Of a stretch of 64,000 nt of DNA, positions 5,533 through 16,829 are shown piece by piece. A program made the position numbers and the translations under genes. The notes under the pieces are model-generated. The model was not told the origin of the DNA. It ran no database searches and worked only from the letters and a program-made list of their open reading frames with translations. Every line of letters starts with the position of its first letter. Position 1 is the first letter of the stretch. Source of the stretch: Pseudomonas marvdashtae (GTDB taxonomy: Bacteria > Pseudomonadota > Gammaproteobacteria > Pseudomonadales > Pseudomonadaceae); contig NZ_JABWQX020000002.1 in NCBI RefSeq assembly GCF_014268655.2, positions 186,001 through 250,000 of the forward strand. The letters run 5' to 3'.

Positions 5533-5604
5533 GGTGTTTTCAGTGGCGATCGAGTGACGGATCCTACCAGCGATGTAAACTCTGGGCATGGAAAGGGAGT
5601 GAAA

Positions 5605-10949: not shown

Positions 10950-12287
10950 TCAGTTTTCCAAGGTAGGAACCTTGCGCGGCGCCATGAAGTACATCCAGAT
11001 CAGCGCGATGAAATACATGGCCGGAATCAGGGTGAACAGCACGGTGTAGTTGTTATTCGTGATCGTCAGGATGTGCCCCACCAACTGGGTCATGAACATC
11101 CCGCCGATGGCCGCGCACATGCCGCCGAAGCCGAACACCGTACTCATCATGTGCTTGGGCGTGTAATCCATGACCAGGCTCCAGATGTTCGCGGTCCAGG
11201 CCTGGTGCGCGCCGATTGCCAGGGAAATGGCAAACACCGCTACCCAGAGGCTGCTGGAGCCGGCGGCCATGATCACGCCGACGATGCAGCAGGCAAACAG
11301 CAGCATGGAGAGCAGCCGTGCCTTGATCGGATTGACCCCGCGGCCAATCAGGAACGAAGACAAAATCCCGCCGCCGACACTGCCGAAGTCGGCGGTGAGG
11401 TAAATGATGATCAGCGGGATGCCCATCTGGGTCACGTTGATGCCCAGGTTGTATTGCTGGTTCAAGAATGGCGGCAGCCAGTACAGGTAGAACCAGAACA
11501 CCGGCGCGGTGATCGAGTAGGCCAGGGCGAATGCCCAGGTGCCGCGCATGCGCAGGATCCGGGAGAACGGCACGCGGGCCTGGTCCGGTTCATCCTGGGC
11601 CTGGATGTAGTCCAGTTCTGACTGTTTTACGCTCGGGTGATCTTCCGGGTTGAAGTATTTCAGACCCCAGAACAGCAACCAGATCCCGCCCAGCGCGGCC
11701 ATGCACAGGAACGCGGCCTGCCAGCCCCACACGTGCAGGATCAGCGGCAACAGCATCGGCGTGAACATTGCGCCGACGTTGGTTCCGGCGTTGAAAATAC
11801 CGGTGGCCACGGCGCGTTCGCCAGCCGGGAACCACAGCCGCGTGGTCTTCACGCAGGCCGGGTAGTTGGCTGCTTCGGTCAGGCCGAGGATGAAACGACA
11901 GACCATGAAGCCCACCGCAGAGGTGGCCAGGCCATGGGCGCCGGTCGCCAGGCTCCAGAGCAGCACGGCGCAGAAGAACACGCGCTTGACGCCAACCCGA
12001 TCGATCAGCCGACCCTGCAACACGAAGCCGATGGCATAGCCGACCTGGAACCAGAAATTGATGTTGGCGTAATCCATCGCCGTCCAACTCATCTCCTTGG
12101 CAAGAATGGGCTGCATGACGCCCAGTGCGGCGCGGTCGATGTAATTCAGGGTGGTGGCAAAAAACACCAGGGCGAGCATGCCCCAACGGGTCTTGCCCAC
12201 CGCCATGGCGCCACGGATCTTGTCGCCGACGCTTTCGGTGGAGGCACCCAGGCCGGGGACCAGGCGGGAACTTTGGGAAGGAATCAT
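10950..12287 (-). CDS. MFS transporter (ACS family), probable quinate/shikimate uptake
   Basis: A 445-residue major facilitator with twelve predicted helices. It shows features of the anion:cation symporter branch: LNYIDRAALGVMQPILAKE in helix 1 and the loop after it, LIDRVGVKRVFF as the MFS signature between helices 2 and 3, and FILGLTEAANYPACVKTTRLWFP in helix 4. This branch carries hexuronates, quinate-like acids and aromatic acids. The neighbouring dehydroshikimate dehydratase and the aroQ-aroE pair suggest it imports quinate, shikimate or dehydroshikimate; that is inference. ATG 12287 is preferred over ATG 12335, which adds 16 polar residues, but neither has a clear ribosome binding site. 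It is divergent from quiC1 with PcaR-like boxes between. Confidence 0.82.
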   Translation of the reverse strand: MIPSQSSRLVPGLGASTESVGDKIRGAMAVGKTRWGMLALVFFATTLNYIDRAALGVMQPILAKEMSWTAMDYANINFWFQVGYAIGFVLQGRLIDRVGVKRVFFCAVLLWSLATGAHGLATSAVGFMVCRFILGLTEAANYPACVKTTRLWFPAGERAVATGIFNAGTNVGAMFTPMLLPLILHVWGWQAAFLCMAALGGIWLLFWGLKYFNPEDHPSVKQSELDYIQAQDEPDQARVPFSRILRMRGTWAFALAYSITAPVFWFYLYWLPPFLNQQYNLGINVTQMGIPLIIIYLTADFGSVGGGILSSFLIGRGVNPIKARLLSMLLFACCIVGVIMAAGSSSLWVAVFAISLAIGAHQAWTANIWSLVMDYTPKHMMSTVFGFGGMCAAIGGMFMTQLVGHILTITNNNYTVLFTLIPAMYFIALIWMYFMAPRKVPTLEN

Positions 12288-12400
12288 AGGTGCACCCGTT
12301 CTTGAAATTCTTATGGTGTGGTCTGGGTTTGCCATTGAGACGGCAGTTCAAGCCGGCGTCAATGTGGGGTCGATGGTGCGCAGTGGCTAAAAAATCGTCA

Positions 12401-12435
12401 ATTCGTTAATCGGGCATTGTGTTCGATAATCGCCC
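12401..12435. promoter_or_regulatory. Tandem PcaR-box-like sites in the MFS/quiC1 divergent promoter
   Basis: GTTCGATAATCGCCC at 12421-12435 matches the 15-base PcaR consensus that I recall from P. putida (GTTCGATAATCGCAC) at 14 of 15 positions. ATTCGTTAATCGGGC at 12401-12415 matches at 11 of 15 in the same orientation. The two begin exactly 20 bases apart, two helical turns, as expected for co-operative binding of an IclR-type regulator. A related palindrome precedes aroQ. The rest of the 269-base intergenic region is AT-rich. Confidence 0.6.
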
Positions 12436-12556
12436 AAAAAACTAACTGGGTGGTACATATTGAATTGCTCAAAGAAACCGACAGCCCAATAATCGGCTGA
12501 CTCTTTTAAAAAGCGGCGCATTTTTGTAGCCGACGCCTGTCCCGGGAGCCGAATTC

Positions 12557-14455
12557 ATGCAGCGTTCCATTGCCACCGTTTCGTTGAGCGGTACCCTGCC
12601 GGAAAAACTCGAAGCCATTGCCGCCGCCGGTTTCGACGGGGTGGAGATTTTCGAGAACGACCTTCTCTATTACGACGGCAGCCCTCGGGAAATCAGGCAA
12701 ATGTGTGCCGACTTGGGCATTGCCATCACCTTGTTCCAGCCGTTTCGCGACTTTGAAGGCTGCCGTCGCGAACGCCTGGCGCGCAACCTGGAGCGGGCCG
12801 AGCGCAAATTCGACCTGATGCAGGAGCTGGGCACCGATCTCGTGCTGGTGTGCAGCAACGCCTCAGCCGATAGCGTTGGCGATGAGCAAATCCTGATTGA
12901 TGACTTGCGGCTACTGGCCGAGCGGGCCGGCGCGCGGGGCTTGCGCATCGGTTATGAGGCATTGGCCTGGGGCCGGCACGTGAATACTTATCAACAGGTC
13001 TGGAACATCGTGCGCCAGGCCGATCATCCGAGCCTTGGCGTATTGCTCGACAGCTTCCACACCTTGTCCCTCAAAGGCGACCCGAGCGCCATTGCCGAGA
13101 TCCCTGGCGAGAAGATTTTCTTCGTGCAAATGGCCGACGCGCCCATCCTGGCGATGGACGTCTTGGAATGGAGCCGGCATTTCCGTTGCTTCCCGGGGCA
13201 GGGCGAGTTCGACCTGCCGGGCTTCCTGGCACCGATCATCAAGAGCGGCTACACCGGGCCGCTGTCGCTGGAGATCTTCAACGACGGATTTCGCGCCGCG
13301 CCGCCAAGGGCCAACGCTGCCGACGGTTTGCGGTCGCTGCTGTACCTGGAGGAAAAAACCCGTCAGCGGCTGGCCGAAGAAGCGCCTGTTCAAAACAGCG
13401 ATATCCTGTTCACGACACCGCCAGCCAGTGAATACAAGGGCATCGAGTTCTTGGAATTCGCGGTGGACGACAACCTCGGCGCCAAGCTCTCCCATTGGCT
13501 GGAGCAGTTGGGGTTCGTCAAGGCGGGACAGCATCGCTCCAAGAACGTCAGTCTGTTGCGCCAGGGCGATATCAACCTGATCCTCAACAGCGAACCGTAT
13601 TCTTTCGCCCACAACTTTTTCGAAGCCCACGGCCCGTCGCTATGCGCGACGGCGGTGCGGGTTCAGGACAGCGCTTCTGCCTTGGAGCGGGCTGTCGCCT
13701 ACAAGGGCCAGCCTTATCGCGGCCTGGTAGGGCCCAATGAGCTGGAACTCGCGGCGGTGCGTGCGCCGGACGGCAGCCTGATCTACCTGGTGGATCAGGA
13801 TGCCGATGTCTATGGCACCGATTTCAACCTGCAACCGGGTGCGGTGATCGGCGCCGGGCTCAAGCGCATCGATCACATGGCGATGGCGCTGCCGGCCGAT
13901 AGCCTCGACAGTTGGGTACTGTTCTACAAGAGCCTGCTGGATTTCGAGGCTGACGACGAAGTGGTGCTGCCCGATCCCTACGGCCTGGTCAAAAGCCGTG
14001 CGTTGCGCAGCCGTTGCAGTTCGATTCGTTTGCCGTTGAATATTTCCGAAAACCGTAACACTGCGATTTCACATGCGCTGTCGAGTTATCGTGGTTCCGG
14101 TGTGCATCACATCGCCTTCGATTGCGATGACATCTTCGCCCAAGTCAGCCGCGCCAAGGAGGCGGGCGTGCCGTTGCTGGACATTCCGTTGAACTACTAT
14201 GACGACTTGGCGGCGCGTTTCGATTTCGACGATGAGTTTCTCAGCGAACTGGCGTATTTCAACGTGTTGTACGACCGCGACGCTCAGGGTGGCGAGTTTT
14301 TCCACGTCTACACCGAACCGTTCGAAGGGCGGTTTTTCTTCGAGATCATCCAGCGCAAGAACGGCTATGCCGGTTACGGCGCGGCCAACGTCGCGGTGCG
14401 GCTGGCAGCGATGGCCAAGTCCCGCAGCGGTGGGGTGCGGCACGCCAAGTTGTAG
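12557..14455 (+). CDS. quiC1: 3-Dehydroshikimate dehydratase fused to an HPPD-like domain (QuiC1 type)
   Basis: This 632-residue cytoplasmic enzyme converts 3-dehydroshikimate to protocatechuate, feeding the beta-ketoadipate pathway. The N-terminal part (about 1-280) is a sugar-isomerase-like TIM barrel, starting SIATVSLSGTLPEKLEAIAAAGFDGVE. The C-terminal part (about 290-620) is a vicinal-oxygen-chelate module like 4-hydroxyphenylpyruvate dioxygenase. It keeps the HPPD metal triad: His440 in RIDHMAM, His517/518 in GVHHIAFD and Glu596 in FFEIIQR. Fused dehydratases of this type are known from P. putida as QuiC1. Some databases call them bifunctional sugar phosphate isomerase/HPPD; the quinate neighbours favour QuiC1. 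ATG 12557 is preceded by GGGAG. Confidence 0.88.
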   Translation: MQRSIATVSLSGTLPEKLEAIAAAGFDGVEIFENDLLYYDGSPREIRQMCADLGIAITLFQPFRDFEGCRRERLARNLERAERKFDLMQELGTDLVLVCSNASADSVGDEQILIDDLRLLAERAGARGLRIGYEALAWGRHVNTYQQVWNIVRQADHPSLGVLLDSFHTLSLKGDPSAIAEIPGEKIFFVQMADAPILAMDVLEWSRHFRCFPGQGEFDLPGFLAPIIKSGYTGPLSLEIFNDGFRAAPPRANAADGLRSLLYLEEKTRQRLAEEAPVQNSDILFTTPPASEYKGIEFLEFAVDDNLGAKLSHWLEQLGFVKAGQHRSKNVSLLRQGDINLILNSEPYSFAHNFFEAHGPSLCATAVRVQDSASALERAVAYKGQPYRGLVGPNELELAAVRAPDGSLIYLVDQDADVYGTDFNLQPGAVIGAGLKRIDHMAMALPADSLDSWVLFYKSLLDFEADDEVVLPDPYGLVKSRALRSRCSSIRLPLNISENRNTAISHALSSYRGSGVHHIAFDCDDIFAQVSRAKEAGVPLLDIPLNYYDDLAARFDFDDEFLSELAYFNVLYDRDAQGGEFFHVYTEPFEGRFFFEIIQRKNGYAGYGAANVAVRLAAMAKSRSGGVRHAKL

Positions 14456-14557
14456 GGAAATAGTAAACGCGGCGGCAATGGGCAACGCCGTGGCTTCCTT
14501 CGCTGCGCGGTGCGGCCCATAATCGCCAACCTGTGCAGTGATGGCCGTGAGCCCGCA

Positions 14558-15235
14558 ATGACTATGAATCCAGAGCTTTCCGCAGTCGTCGAAGAACCTG
14601 TCGCCGCGCCGCGCAAGAGTCGCAAGAACAACCCGGAGAAAACCCGGGAAAACATTCTTCAGGAAGCCATCGTCGAGTTCGTCCAGCAAGGGCTGGCCGG
14701 CGCGCGGGTCGACGCCATCGCCGAGCGCATCCACACCTCCAAGCGCATGATCTATTACTACTTCGGCAGCAAGGAACAGCTGTACGTCGAGGTGCTGGAA
14801 AAACTCTACGGAGATATCCGTACCACCGAGAGCCGCCTGCACCTGGCGGAGCTGGCGCCGGTCGATGCGATCCGCCGCCTGGTGGAGTTCACCTTTGACC
14901 ACCACGACCGCAACGTGGATTTCGTGCGCATCGTCTGCATCGAAAACATCCACAACGCCGAATACGTCAAGCAGTCCGGTACGATCAAGGCGATGACCAA
15001 TACCATCCTCGATTCCCTTGGCGTGATTCTGCGTCGCGGCGCCGAAGAGGGCGTGTTCCGTGCGGGCCTCGAGCCGCTGGATGTACATCTGCTGATCAGT
15101 TCGTTCTGCTTTTACCGGGTGTCCAACCGCCAGACATTCGGTGAGATCTTTCAGATTGATCTGTCGGACGAAGTGATCAAGCAGCGCCATCGGCAGATGG
15201 TTTGCGAGTCGGTGTTGCGGTATCTGCAAGCCTGA
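14558..15235 (+). CDS. TetR-family transcriptional regulator of the quinate/shikimate cluster
   Basis: A 225-residue repressor-type protein. After a basic N-terminal stretch (APRKSRKNNPEKTRENILQ) comes the TetR helix-turn-helix with TSKRMIYYYFGSKEQLYVEVL as recognition helix and its follow-on, then a mostly helical ligand domain. Many regulators of aromatic catabolism belong to this class. It lies 102 bases after quiC1 on the same strand and probably controls the surrounding genes in response to quinate, shikimate or dehydroshikimate; the effector is inferred from position only. ATG 14558 and ATG 14564 are both possible; 14558 is the better spaced from GTGAG at 14547-14551. A bidirectional terminator-like hairpin follows. 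Confidence 0.83.
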   Translation: MTMNPELSAVVEEPVAAPRKSRKNNPEKTRENILQEAIVEFVQQGLAGARVDAIAERIHTSKRMIYYYFGSKEQLYVEVLEKLYGDIRTTESRLHLAELAPVDAIRRLVEFTFDHHDRNVDFVRIVCIENIHNAEYVKQSGTIKAMTNTILDSLGVILRRGAEEGVFRAGLEPLDVHLLISSFCFYRVSNRQTFGEIFQIDLSDEVIKQRHRQMVCESVLRYLQA

Positions 15236-15239
15236 ACCT

Positions 15240-15268
15240 CGTGGGGGCGAGCAGGCCCCCACGGGTTT
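15240..15268. terminator. Terminator hairpin between tetR and aroE
   Basis: CGTGGGGGC (15240-15248) pairs with GCCCCCACG (15255-15263) across a six-base loop, followed by GGTTTT. It occupies the 33-base gap between two convergent genes, so it probably ends transcription of the tetR gene on the plus strand. The minus-strand side lacks a T run. Confidence 0.65.
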
Positions 15269-16126
15269 TCAGTGATTCATGCTCTGGAAGTGCGTCAGCA
15301 TCCGCTGGGCATCCGGTGCCACGCCGCTGAACAGCTCGAACGCCTTGACTGCCTGGAACACCGCCATGGTGCCGCCATCCAGCGTGCGGCAACCCAAGGC
15401 CCGGGCGTTGCGCAGCAGTTCGGTCTCCAGTGGGAAATAGACGATTTCCGCCACCCACAATTCGCTTCGCAACAGCTCGACCGGCACTGGCATGCCCGGC
15501 AGTTTCGCCATGCCCATCGGCGTGGTATTCACCAACCCATCGGCCTCGACCATTGCACTGGCCAGATCCTGGCCGGCCCGGGCGCGACTGGCGCCGAACT
15601 GTTGATTCAGATTGTTCGCCAGTGCCTCGGCACGGCTGGCCTCGACATCAAAAATGCTCAGTGTCCCCACGCCTTCCGCCAACAGCGCGTGGGCGACTGC
15701 TGCACCTGCACCGCCGGCCCCCATCTGGACGACGTGGCGGCGCGAAACGTCGCCCAGGCCACGACGAAAGCCCTCGGCAAATCCCAGGCAATCGGTATTG
15801 TGGCCGATGCGTTTGCCGTTTTTGAGCACCACGGTATTCACCGCGCCGATTCCGCGGGCTTCGGGCGACAGCTCGTCCAGCAATGGGATGACCGCCTGTT
15901 TGCATGGGAAGGTGATGTTCAGGCCGGTAAAACTCATGCGTTCGGCGGCTATCAACAAGTCGGGCAGGGCGCTGCTGTCGAGCTTCAGCGCATCAAGGTC
16001 GATCAATCGATACAGGTAACGCATGCCTTGGGCATCGCCTTCGTGCTCATGCAGCGCCGGCGTGCGAGACGCCTGGATACCCGCGCCGATCAGGCCGGCC
16101 AGCACAGTGATTTTCGACATGCGCAT
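15269..16126 (-). CDS. Shikimate dehydrogenase paralogue (quinate/shikimate catabolism)
   Basis: This 285-residue protein oxidises shikimate, or possibly quinate, to the 3-dehydro form with NAD(P). Shikimate-site features are SRTPALHEHEG near 20-30, catalytic Lys76 in ITFPCKQ and Asp112 in NTDCLGF; the nucleotide-binding loop GAGGAG is at 136-141. The SRTPALHEHEG stretch differs from the SLSP..HN pattern of the biosynthetic AroE, which suggests one of the AroE-like paralogues rather than the housekeeping enzyme. Start ATG 16126 shares its A with the aroQ stop (TGATG), so the two are coupled; an internal ATG two codons later is also possible. Confidence 0.85.
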   Translation of the reverse strand: MRMSKITVLAGLIGAGIQASRTPALHEHEGDAQGMRYLYRLIDLDALKLDSSALPDLLIAAERMSFTGLNITFPCKQAVIPLLDELSPEARGIGAVNTVVLKNGKRIGHNTDCLGFAEGFRRGLGDVSRRHVVQMGAGGAGAAVAHALLAEGVGTLSIFDVEASRAEALANNLNQQFGASRARAGQDLASAMVEADGLVNTTPMGMAKLPGMPVPVELLRSELWVAEIVYFPLETELLRNARALGCRTLDGGTMAVFQAVKAFELFSGVAPDAQRMLTHFQSMNH

Positions 16127-16566
16127 CAACCCTTCAACCGCTGACTGAAATGTTCCAGGGCCAGGCGATAGCCGTGGCTGCCGAACCCGCACATCACGCC
16201 GATGGCCACCGATGAGACAAAAGAGTGATGACGGAACGTTTCCCGGGCGTGGACGTTGGACAGGTGCACTTCGATTGCCGGGACTTCACTGGCGACCAAG
16301 GCGTCGCGGATAGCGACGGAGGTATGAGTCCAGGCTGCGGGATTGATGATGATGCCGGCACATCGGCCGCGGGCGCCATGAATCCAGTCGATCAGCTCCC
16401 CTTCCTGGTTGGTTTGGCGAAACTCCACGGCCAGGCCGAACTCTTCGGCGGCGCGGCCGCATAAGGCAGAAATATCCGCCAGGGTTTCGTGTCCGTAGGT
16501 CGCCGGCTCGCGAGTGCCGAGCAGGTTCAGGTTCGGGCCGTTGAGCACCAGAACGATTGGAGGCAT
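16126..16566 (-). CDS. aroQ: Type II 3-dehydroquinate dehydratase
   Basis: AroQ interconverts 3-dehydroquinate and 3-dehydroshikimate. In this setting it probably runs in the catabolic direction between quinate dehydrogenase and QuiC1. The 146-residue length is standard. [13 protein letters not shown] at 9-21 is the family signature, the catalytic Tyr is Tyr24 in ATYG, and [11 protein letters not shown] provides the substrate-binding loop; NPAAWTHTS is also conserved. It is the first gene of the aroQ-aroE pair. The 5' region holds a PcaR-like palindrome at 16680-16694. Pseudomonas usually has another aroQ next to accB, so this one is likely the dedicated catabolic copy. Confidence 0.9.
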
Positions 16567-16679
16567 CGCAATTTCTCCACATTTTTATTGTTGGTGTGGG
16601 CTGGGTTTCAGCTTGTGGAGATAAATTGTACTAGATGGTTAATTTGGTCAAATAAAGCAGCCGACATCGGTCAATATGT

Positions 16680-16694
16680 GTTCGATGATCGAAC
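16680..16694. promoter_or_regulatory. PcaR-box-like palindrome upstream of aroQ
   Basis: GTTCGATGATCGAAC is a perfect 7-1-7 inverted repeat and matches the recalled PcaR consensus at 13 of 15 positions. It lies 114 bases before the aroQ start. It shares GTTCGAT-N-ATCG with the sites upstream of quiC1, so both transcription units may answer to one regulator (PcaR or the local TetR). Confidence 0.55.
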
Positions 16695-16720: not shown

Positions 16721-16829
16721 GTGGCGAGGGGATTTATCCCCGCTCGAGTGCGCAGCACTCGCAAGAGGCCAGACAAGACAGAGCAGAGGGCCGCTTCGCA
16801 GCCCAGCGGGGATAAATCCCCTCGCCACA
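16721..16829. repeat. REPIN-type inverted repeat, copy B
   Basis: The outer arms are GTGGCGAGGGGATTTATCCC and its complement at 16808-16827, as in copy A. The inner hairpins differ: GAGTGCGCAGCACTC on the left and GGGCCGCTTCGCAGCCC on the right. The left half is therefore of another subtype than in copies A and D. It lies between the promoter side of aroQ and the 3' end of trmA. Confidence 0.85.

Follow-up and report, generated by a model that had tools for sequence, protein, structure and literature searches.

Genes and control sites of the quinate locus

We analyzed the control regions of the quinate genes in a 64-kb stretch of the Pseudomonas marvdashtae genome (called the window throughout), which is part of contig C2 of an assembly of 5.90 Mb in 18 contigs. 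The locus consists of quiC1, a divergently oriented MFS transporter gene, a gene for a TetR-family regulator, an aroE paralogue, and aroQ (Table 1). At the promoters of both quiC1 and aroQ, two conserved sites are paired: a box resembling the published operator of the IclR-family regulator PcaR, and a second palindromic element, which is likely to be the operator of the TetR-family regulator encoded at the same locus. The pca cluster (in the order pcaR, pcaK, a pcaI-like gene, and pcaF) is located on contig C4, which places the quinate genes outside the pca operon.

Table 1 Genes and predicted control sites of the quinate locus (window coordinates)
Feature	Position	Strand	Remarks
MFS transporter gene, divergent	10950..12287	-	PF07690; start at 12287 chosen by eye, longest frame starts at 12335
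Weak upstream copy of the box, named by the original prediction	12401..12415	+	11/15, chance level
PcaR-type box before quiC1, GTTCGATAATCGCCC	12421..12435	+	14/15 relative to the published operator
Second palindromic element before quiC1, likely TetR operator, ACTAACTGGGTGGT / ACTAACYGGNTNGT	12441..12454	+	Starts 20 bp after box start
Predicted -10 of quiC1, TACATA	12454..12459	+	Overlaps last base of the element; GTACA columns 87-93%; layout as at aroQ and TRAP promoters
quiC1, 3-dehydroshikimate dehydratase (two-domain)	12557..14455	+	NF042435, 1295 bits (cut-off 1200)
TetR-family regulator gene, likely owner of the second element	14558..15235	+	TetR_N and TetR_C_29
Shikimate/quinate dehydrogenase family gene (aroE paralogue)	15269..16123	-	NF009201, 472 bits (cut-off 235); start chosen by eye
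aroQ, type II 3-dehydroquinate dehydratase	16126..16566	-	NF003806, 227 bits (cut-off 171)
Predicted -10 of aroQ, TACAAT	16625..16630	-	TACA invariant in 78/78 loci
Second palindromic element before aroQ, ATTAACCATCTAGT	16630..16643	-	Starts 51 bp after box start
Predicted -35 of aroQ, TTGACC	16646..16651	-	Columns 79-99% conserved (78 loci)
PcaR-type palindrome before aroQ, GTTCGATGATCGAAC (GTTCGATCATCGAAC on the minus strand)	16680..16694	-	13/15

PcaR-type boxes precede quiC1 and aroQ

The boxes were scored against the PcaR operator GTTCGATAATCGCAC, as given in the available part of PMC12455658. The sites before quiC1 and aroQ are the two best matches in the window, and scores of at least 13 of 15 positions occurred in none of ten mononucleotide shuffles. 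The aroQ site reaches its score on either strand, its arms being perfect around one central base. Both sites had been named, with the same scores, by the original prediction, a reading of this DNA that was made from the sequence alone, and both hold up. A looser search with the 12-mer put forward there (up to two mismatches) gave 26 matches in the window compared to a shuffle mean of 15.7, a mild enrichment that 3 of 100 shuffles reached.

The prediction had also described two tandem copies in front of quiC1, of which the one at 12421 is real. We rejected the other one (12401) as a full site, since its score is at chance level and the full site is not conserved: 17 places in the window score at least 11 of 15, with 11.5 expected by chance. 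Among 118 loci anchored on the quiC1 box (see below), the window alone scores at least 11 at position -20, or four loci with a slide of one base to either side (-21 to -19). Conservation at this position is partial (30/118 loci score at least 7, compared to about six in shuffles) and mostly concerns an ATTCG-like left half.

The whole genome was searched with GTTCGATNATCG, as suggested by the same prediction as a check against random occurrence. This gave 13 exact matches, spread over 11 places, whereas the reversed control gave no match. Five of these places precede genes, namely pcaR, quiC1, aroQ, and two OprD porin genes, and the full palindrome is present at two of the 11, before aroQ and before pcaR. 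With a looser PcaR pattern, 32 matches were found in the genome, compared to two in the reversed control. In the pca cluster, boxes precede pcaR (GTTCGATAATCGAAC), pcaK (GTTCGATAAACGCAC), and pcaI (GTTCGATAAACGAAC), the latter promoter carrying an additional copy, GTCGATTATCGG, about 19 bp further on. The other six of the 11 places are located within stop-to-stop frames of 256-808 codons, of which one (L011) was without a link to a known protein; we provisionally treated them as chance occurrences. The genome encodes one PcaR orthologue (350 bits, cut-off 284.75), the sole protein above the PcaR/PcaU/PobR cut-off, and a palindrome is located upstream of its gene.

At one of the two OprD genes (L004/L020), the box shares bases with the first codons of the longest frame, which runs over 481 codons from stop to stop; as judged by eye, the true start is the later MPDL. 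This box (position 4920 of L020, C1:2735000-2744500) lies between the porin gene and an MhpT-like MFS gene, next to genes encoding a p-hydroxycinnamoyl-CoA hydratase/lyase and an aldehyde dehydrogenase. PcaR control may hence extend to hydroxycinnamate uptake. The second porin gene is located at a contig end (L021, C1:4352500-4359260), and its box, at position 5573, is identical to the quiC1 box over 19 bases (GTTCGATAATCGCCCAAAA). A 70% relative of this porin is encoded divergently from quiC in genome G041 (L148).

A second palindromic element is paired with the quiC1 box

We spotted the second element in an alignment of near relatives (78 of 80 plus the window, all of them Pseudomonas) and afterwards measured it in a wider set of the same genus, comprising 149 evenly drawn genomes. 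QuiC was found above the family cut-off in 119 of them, including P. marvdashtae, and the quiC1 loci were fetched from the other 118. At all 119 loci, the window included, the best operator match upstream of quiC1 scores 12-15 of 15. Taking best hits, ACTAACCGGTTNGT, matched at 10 or more of 13 positions, forms a second motif whose first base lies 19 or 20 bp downstream of the box start in 118 of the 119 loci. At the exception, L148, the best motif match is 166 bp off, but two pairs of box and motif with a distance of 20 bp are present. All 118 loci that could be anchored (117 relatives and the window) score 10-13 of 13 at +19/20, whereas only 0.19% of shuffles score at least 9.

The distance from the box to the start codon varies between 103 and 280 bp in these 118 loci, while the spacing of the pair is unchanged, indicating that the two sites are held together while their surroundings change. 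In the box-anchored columns, GTTCGATAATCG is conserved to 81-100% (partly by construction), AAACTAAC to 92-100%, and a following GTACA to 87-93%; flanking columns are mostly unconserved, with exceptions such as -20, -18, -4, and +44. The element at quiC1 forms 5-6 of 7 palindromic pairs in 92/118 loci. In several relatives (L044, L069, and others among L024-L103), repeat-like inserts separate quiC1 from the paired operator, so that the promoter is far from the gene there.

From the conserved columns we predict a -10 region that overlaps the end of the element. The box would then fall on the -35 region (predicted center near -38), and no -35 hexamer is visible. A different promoter, consisting of TTCGTT (12402-12407) and GATAAT (12425-12430), had been considered first and was set aside, because its first half is located in the unconserved upstream copy and because TACAWW is common to three promoters, those of quiC1, aroQ, and a TRAP transporter operon described below. 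The reason for considering it was a similar arrangement at pcaI, TTCGAT-16-GATTAT.

Box and element at aroQ are spaced by helical turns

A complete aroQ start was contained in the fetched stretch of 78 of the 119 loci (77 relatives and the window). In these 78 loci, an element resembling ATTAACCANNTAGT is located between a conserved TTGACC, the predicted -35, and TACAWT, the predicted -10. A box of at least 10/14 precedes the element in 70 of them, at distances of 40-41 bp (19 loci), 50-53 bp (46 loci), or 62-63 bp (5 loci), and no other spacing was found in the 30-80 bp searched. On a FastTree tree of quiC DNA, these spacing classes require at least five changes, four of which are forced by well-supported branches. 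Steps of one helical turn argue for contact along a single face of the helix.

The eight remaining promoters (L107, L147, L149, L156, L161, L162, L167, L220) belong to few clades and contain box-like sequences of 10-13/15, located 142-143, 152, or 163-164 bp upstream of the element.

The same data bear on an alternative in which PcaR acts alone and the second palindrome belongs to an extended three-box IclR-type site or serves as a conserved promoter spacer, with the TetR protein acting elsewhere. PcaU, PobR, and HmgR have three-box sites according to the accessible text of PMC8222616, and the element reads GGTTCG in many loci, resembling a half-site of the box. But its sequence is constant although its distance from the box varies (20 bp, or about 40, 51, or 62 bp), and at pcaR, pcaK, and pcaI the boxes are present and the element is absent. 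Moreover, nine of 18 further places carry the element without a box of at least 10/14 within 100 bp, and the presence of the element follows that of QuiC and TetR (see below). We therefore consider this alternative rather improbable.

The element follows QuiC and the TetR-family regulator

In the P. marvdashtae genome, AYTAACYRNNTNGTACAWWTT occurs exactly at three places: before quiC1, before aroQ, and on the minus strand of contig C1 (3253991-3254011), upstream of TRAP transporter genes. Allowing two mismatches added one further place, and the reversed control also gave one. The TRAP promoter contains a box, AGCCGATAATCGCAC, located 51 bp before the element as at aroQ, and here too the element is flanked by a predicted -35 TTGACC and -10 TACAWT. 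Exact copies of AYTAACYRNNTNGTACAWWTT were found in 65 of the 149 genomes (64/119 with QuiC, 1/30 without), while the reversed pattern was found in none of the 149. The lone genome without QuiC that contains the element, G058, carries an orthologue of the TetR regulator and, adjoining it, a quiC fragment.

We fetched 18 further element places, ten of which precede TRAP genes and seven aroQ, the last one (L305) being without an assigned gene. At nine of these places a box of at least 10/14 was found (shuffle p ≤0.03), at distances of 40, 51 (five times), 52, 61, and 63 bp. None of the 18 had played a part in defining the spacings; one TRAP promoter (L310, genome G035) was known earlier.

The distribution of both regulators was also determined. 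PcaR scores above its cut-off in 140/149 genomes, including 118 of the 119 with QuiC. The TetR gene is contained in the fetched quiC stretch of 110/118 relatives, and in all of the remaining eight an orthologue (70-73% identity) is encoded elsewhere in the genome. Nine of the 30 genomes without full-length QuiC were tested: the orthologue is missing in eight, and the ninth is the element-bearing genome. The TetR protein has a DNA-binding domain (TetR_N, PF00440, 49 bits, cut-off 24).

These findings support the claim that PcaR-type sites link the quinate genes to the downstream pathway: the boxes are conserved in 118 relatives, they also occur in this genome at pcaR, pcaK, and pcaI, and nearly all genomes with QuiC encode PcaR. 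The alternative offered by the original prediction, that the boxes themselves are read by the local TetR regulator and not by PcaR, found no support. The TetR gene is close by, and TetR operators are palindromes. But the boxes match the published PcaR operator and are found at pca promoters that lack the second element, and the TetR protein has a better candidate site in that element. This makes TetR an extremely unlikely reader of the boxes. Very likely, the TetR protein has an adjacent operator of its own, which the original prediction had not noted. Since the TetR regulator has its own candidate element beside the PcaR-type box, the choice between PcaR or TetR most likely has to be replaced by PcaR and TetR acting jointly.

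An IclR-family gene (37% to PcaR) adjoins aroE at three loci (L313, L314, L316), the aroQ promoters of which contain the second element and no box of at least 10/14.

Another IclR-family protein could in principle read the boxes instead of PcaR. The motif is common to related IclR proteins according to the part of PMC8222616 at hand, and the extra IclR gene at the three loci just mentioned would provide such a reader. However, the aroQ promoters of these loci have no box of at least 10/14. In addition, a single P. marvdashtae protein exceeds the PcaR/PcaU/PobR cut-off; the next one (180 bits) is, as judged by eye, encoded among sugar-acid genes without an exact box. A reader other than PcaR is thus clearly improbable.

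Other features of the locus

In 90/118 relatives, the fetched stretch includes the MFS gene, located upstream of quiC1. Directly upstream of the aroQ box, at window positions 16721-16828, lies a REP-like (repetitive extragenic palindrome) inverted repeat, GTGGCGAGGGGATTTATCCCCGCT ... AGCGGGGATAAATCCCCTCGCCAC, and repeats resembling it are also present in L020 and L021. A search of the P. marvdashtae genome for a quinate dehydrogenase gave one full-length match, a pyrroloquinoline quinone (PQQ)-dependent dehydrogenase, and quiA was not identified; the exact box is absent from the 11 kb around this match. In a plasmid search, none of the 27 records covered 80% of quiC1.

Proposed two-input control of the quinate promoters

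We propose that the quinate promoters, each carrying a PcaR-type box and a likely TetR operator, are probably subject to two inputs, so that release of TetR and help by PcaR would both be needed. TetR bound to the second element would block the promoter until it is released by quinate or an intermediate of the pathway; at aroQ and the TRAP genes, where the element is located between the predicted -35 and -10 regions, it could act as a simple steric repressor. PcaR, predicted to respond to an inducer of the β-ketoadipate pathway, would bind the box on the same helical face as RNA polymerase and aid it. The box would stand in place of the -35 region at quiC1; at aroQ and the TRAP genes it is located about 40, 51, or 62 bp before the element, with a predicted center near -58, -69, or -80.

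PcaR could instead act as a repressor, keeping the quinate promoters off as long as the downstream pathway is not induced. According to the available portion of PMC12455658, PcaR is a repressor or an activator depending on the position of its site. The helical spacing and the missing -35 at quiC1 suggest activation, as far as such features of the sequence can indicate it. We regard repression by PcaR as unlikely, though by no means negligible.

A number of observations weigh against two-input control. Eight of the 78 aroQ promoters lack a box of at least 10/14 within 30-80 bp, and no such box was found within 100 bp at nine of the 18 further places, 17 of which belong to aroQ or TRAP genes. 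PcaR input is therefore not universal at these promoters. At aroQ, the element is often poorly palindromic (1-3 of 7 pairs in 46/78 loci, and 5-6 pairs in only 23/78), and the exact element was missed in 55 of the 119 QuiC genomes, which have variants of it at quiC1. The exact copy at L305 (G023, C1:3407799) is perhaps inside a frame. One QuiC genome, G034, shows no PcaR (95% complete, 16 of 22 candidates scored) and yet keeps a box of 15/15. An alternative -10 (GATAAT) is located inside the quiC1 box. Finally, the loci are related by descent, and counts across genomes are thus not independent.

At L305, a box-like sequence, GTTCGATAGTCGCAC, is found on the other side of the element.

In genome G041, the genes for an OprD porin, QuiC, TetR, and the TRAP transporter form one cluster, which ties the distant OprD (C1:4358072) and TRAP genes of P. 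marvdashtae to quinate by association. We tentatively envisage a regulon that spans the genus, with PcaR as activator and TetR as repressor on paired sites, the spacing of which evolves by whole helical turns (about 20, 40, 51, and 62 bp). Signals from the substrate and from the end of the pathway would be combined in an AND gate over quiC1, aroQ, and the TRAP genes, and the OprD porins would respond to PcaR alone. This wider picture is quite possible, if somewhat short of probable. The findings provide a candidate operator and regulon for a TetR regulator without earlier assignment, and PcaR would come to control quinate uptake and conversion in addition to ring cleavage. The TRAP transporter and an OprD porin are pointed to as likely parts of quinate uptake, and the series of helical spacings is a ready-made natural experiment on the placement of activator sites. 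3-Dehydroshikimate dehydratases of the QuiC1 kind are used for protocatechuate production, and their native control therefore matters to engineers.

Comparison with known systems

A PcaR box overlapping the -35 and -10 regions was reportedly described by Guo and Houghton in 1999. By comparison, the quiC1 box is located on the predicted -35 region and the aroQ box further upstream, the start sites being predictions. The closest parallel is the PcaR regulon of Pseudomonas putida: the operator sequence is alike, the PcaR orthologue scores 520 bits against the solved 'Pca regulon' regulator 8eju, and boxes are found here at pcaR, pcaK, and pcaI. PcaR has been linked to the induction of pca genes by β-ketoadipate and, in vitro, to succinate, and the targets named in the accessible part of the source are pca genes (PMC12455658). 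In contrast, the boxes described here are located at genes for quinate use, for a TRAP transporter, and for OprD porins, with a second operator added at the quinate genes. A 'PcaR' iModulon of P. putida, mentioned in the available text of PMC10949508, could hold quinate genes.

The TetR regulator resembles RutR, another member of the family, in its TetR_N helix-turn-helix and in a likely operator that overlaps the promoter. RutR is also its best NCBIfam model, yet the score is 57 bits compared to a cut-off of 230. The nearest solved chain by sequence is 3npi, an unnamed TetR protein (101 bits). Among the literature matches listed, which cover titles and abstract openings and mostly leave subscription papers outside the search, none concerned control of quinate genes by PcaR or TetR in Pseudomonas, and none a paired PcaR-type/TetR-type operator. 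A comparative survey of IclR regulators mentions quinate/shikimate gene sets in general terms in the part available to us (PMC8222616).

In Acinetobacter baylyi ADP1, the IclR-family regulator PcaU likewise controls quinate genes, but there the pcaI-quiA region forms one operon transcribed from the pcaI promoter, as far as described in the accessible part of PMC4213383. In P. marvdashtae the quinate genes are located apart from the pca cluster and have boxes of their own together with a TetR-type element. Taken together, control of quinate genes by an IclR-family protein is known already from PcaU of Acinetobacter, whereas the paired operator, which is real and conserved, was not met with in the papers searched.

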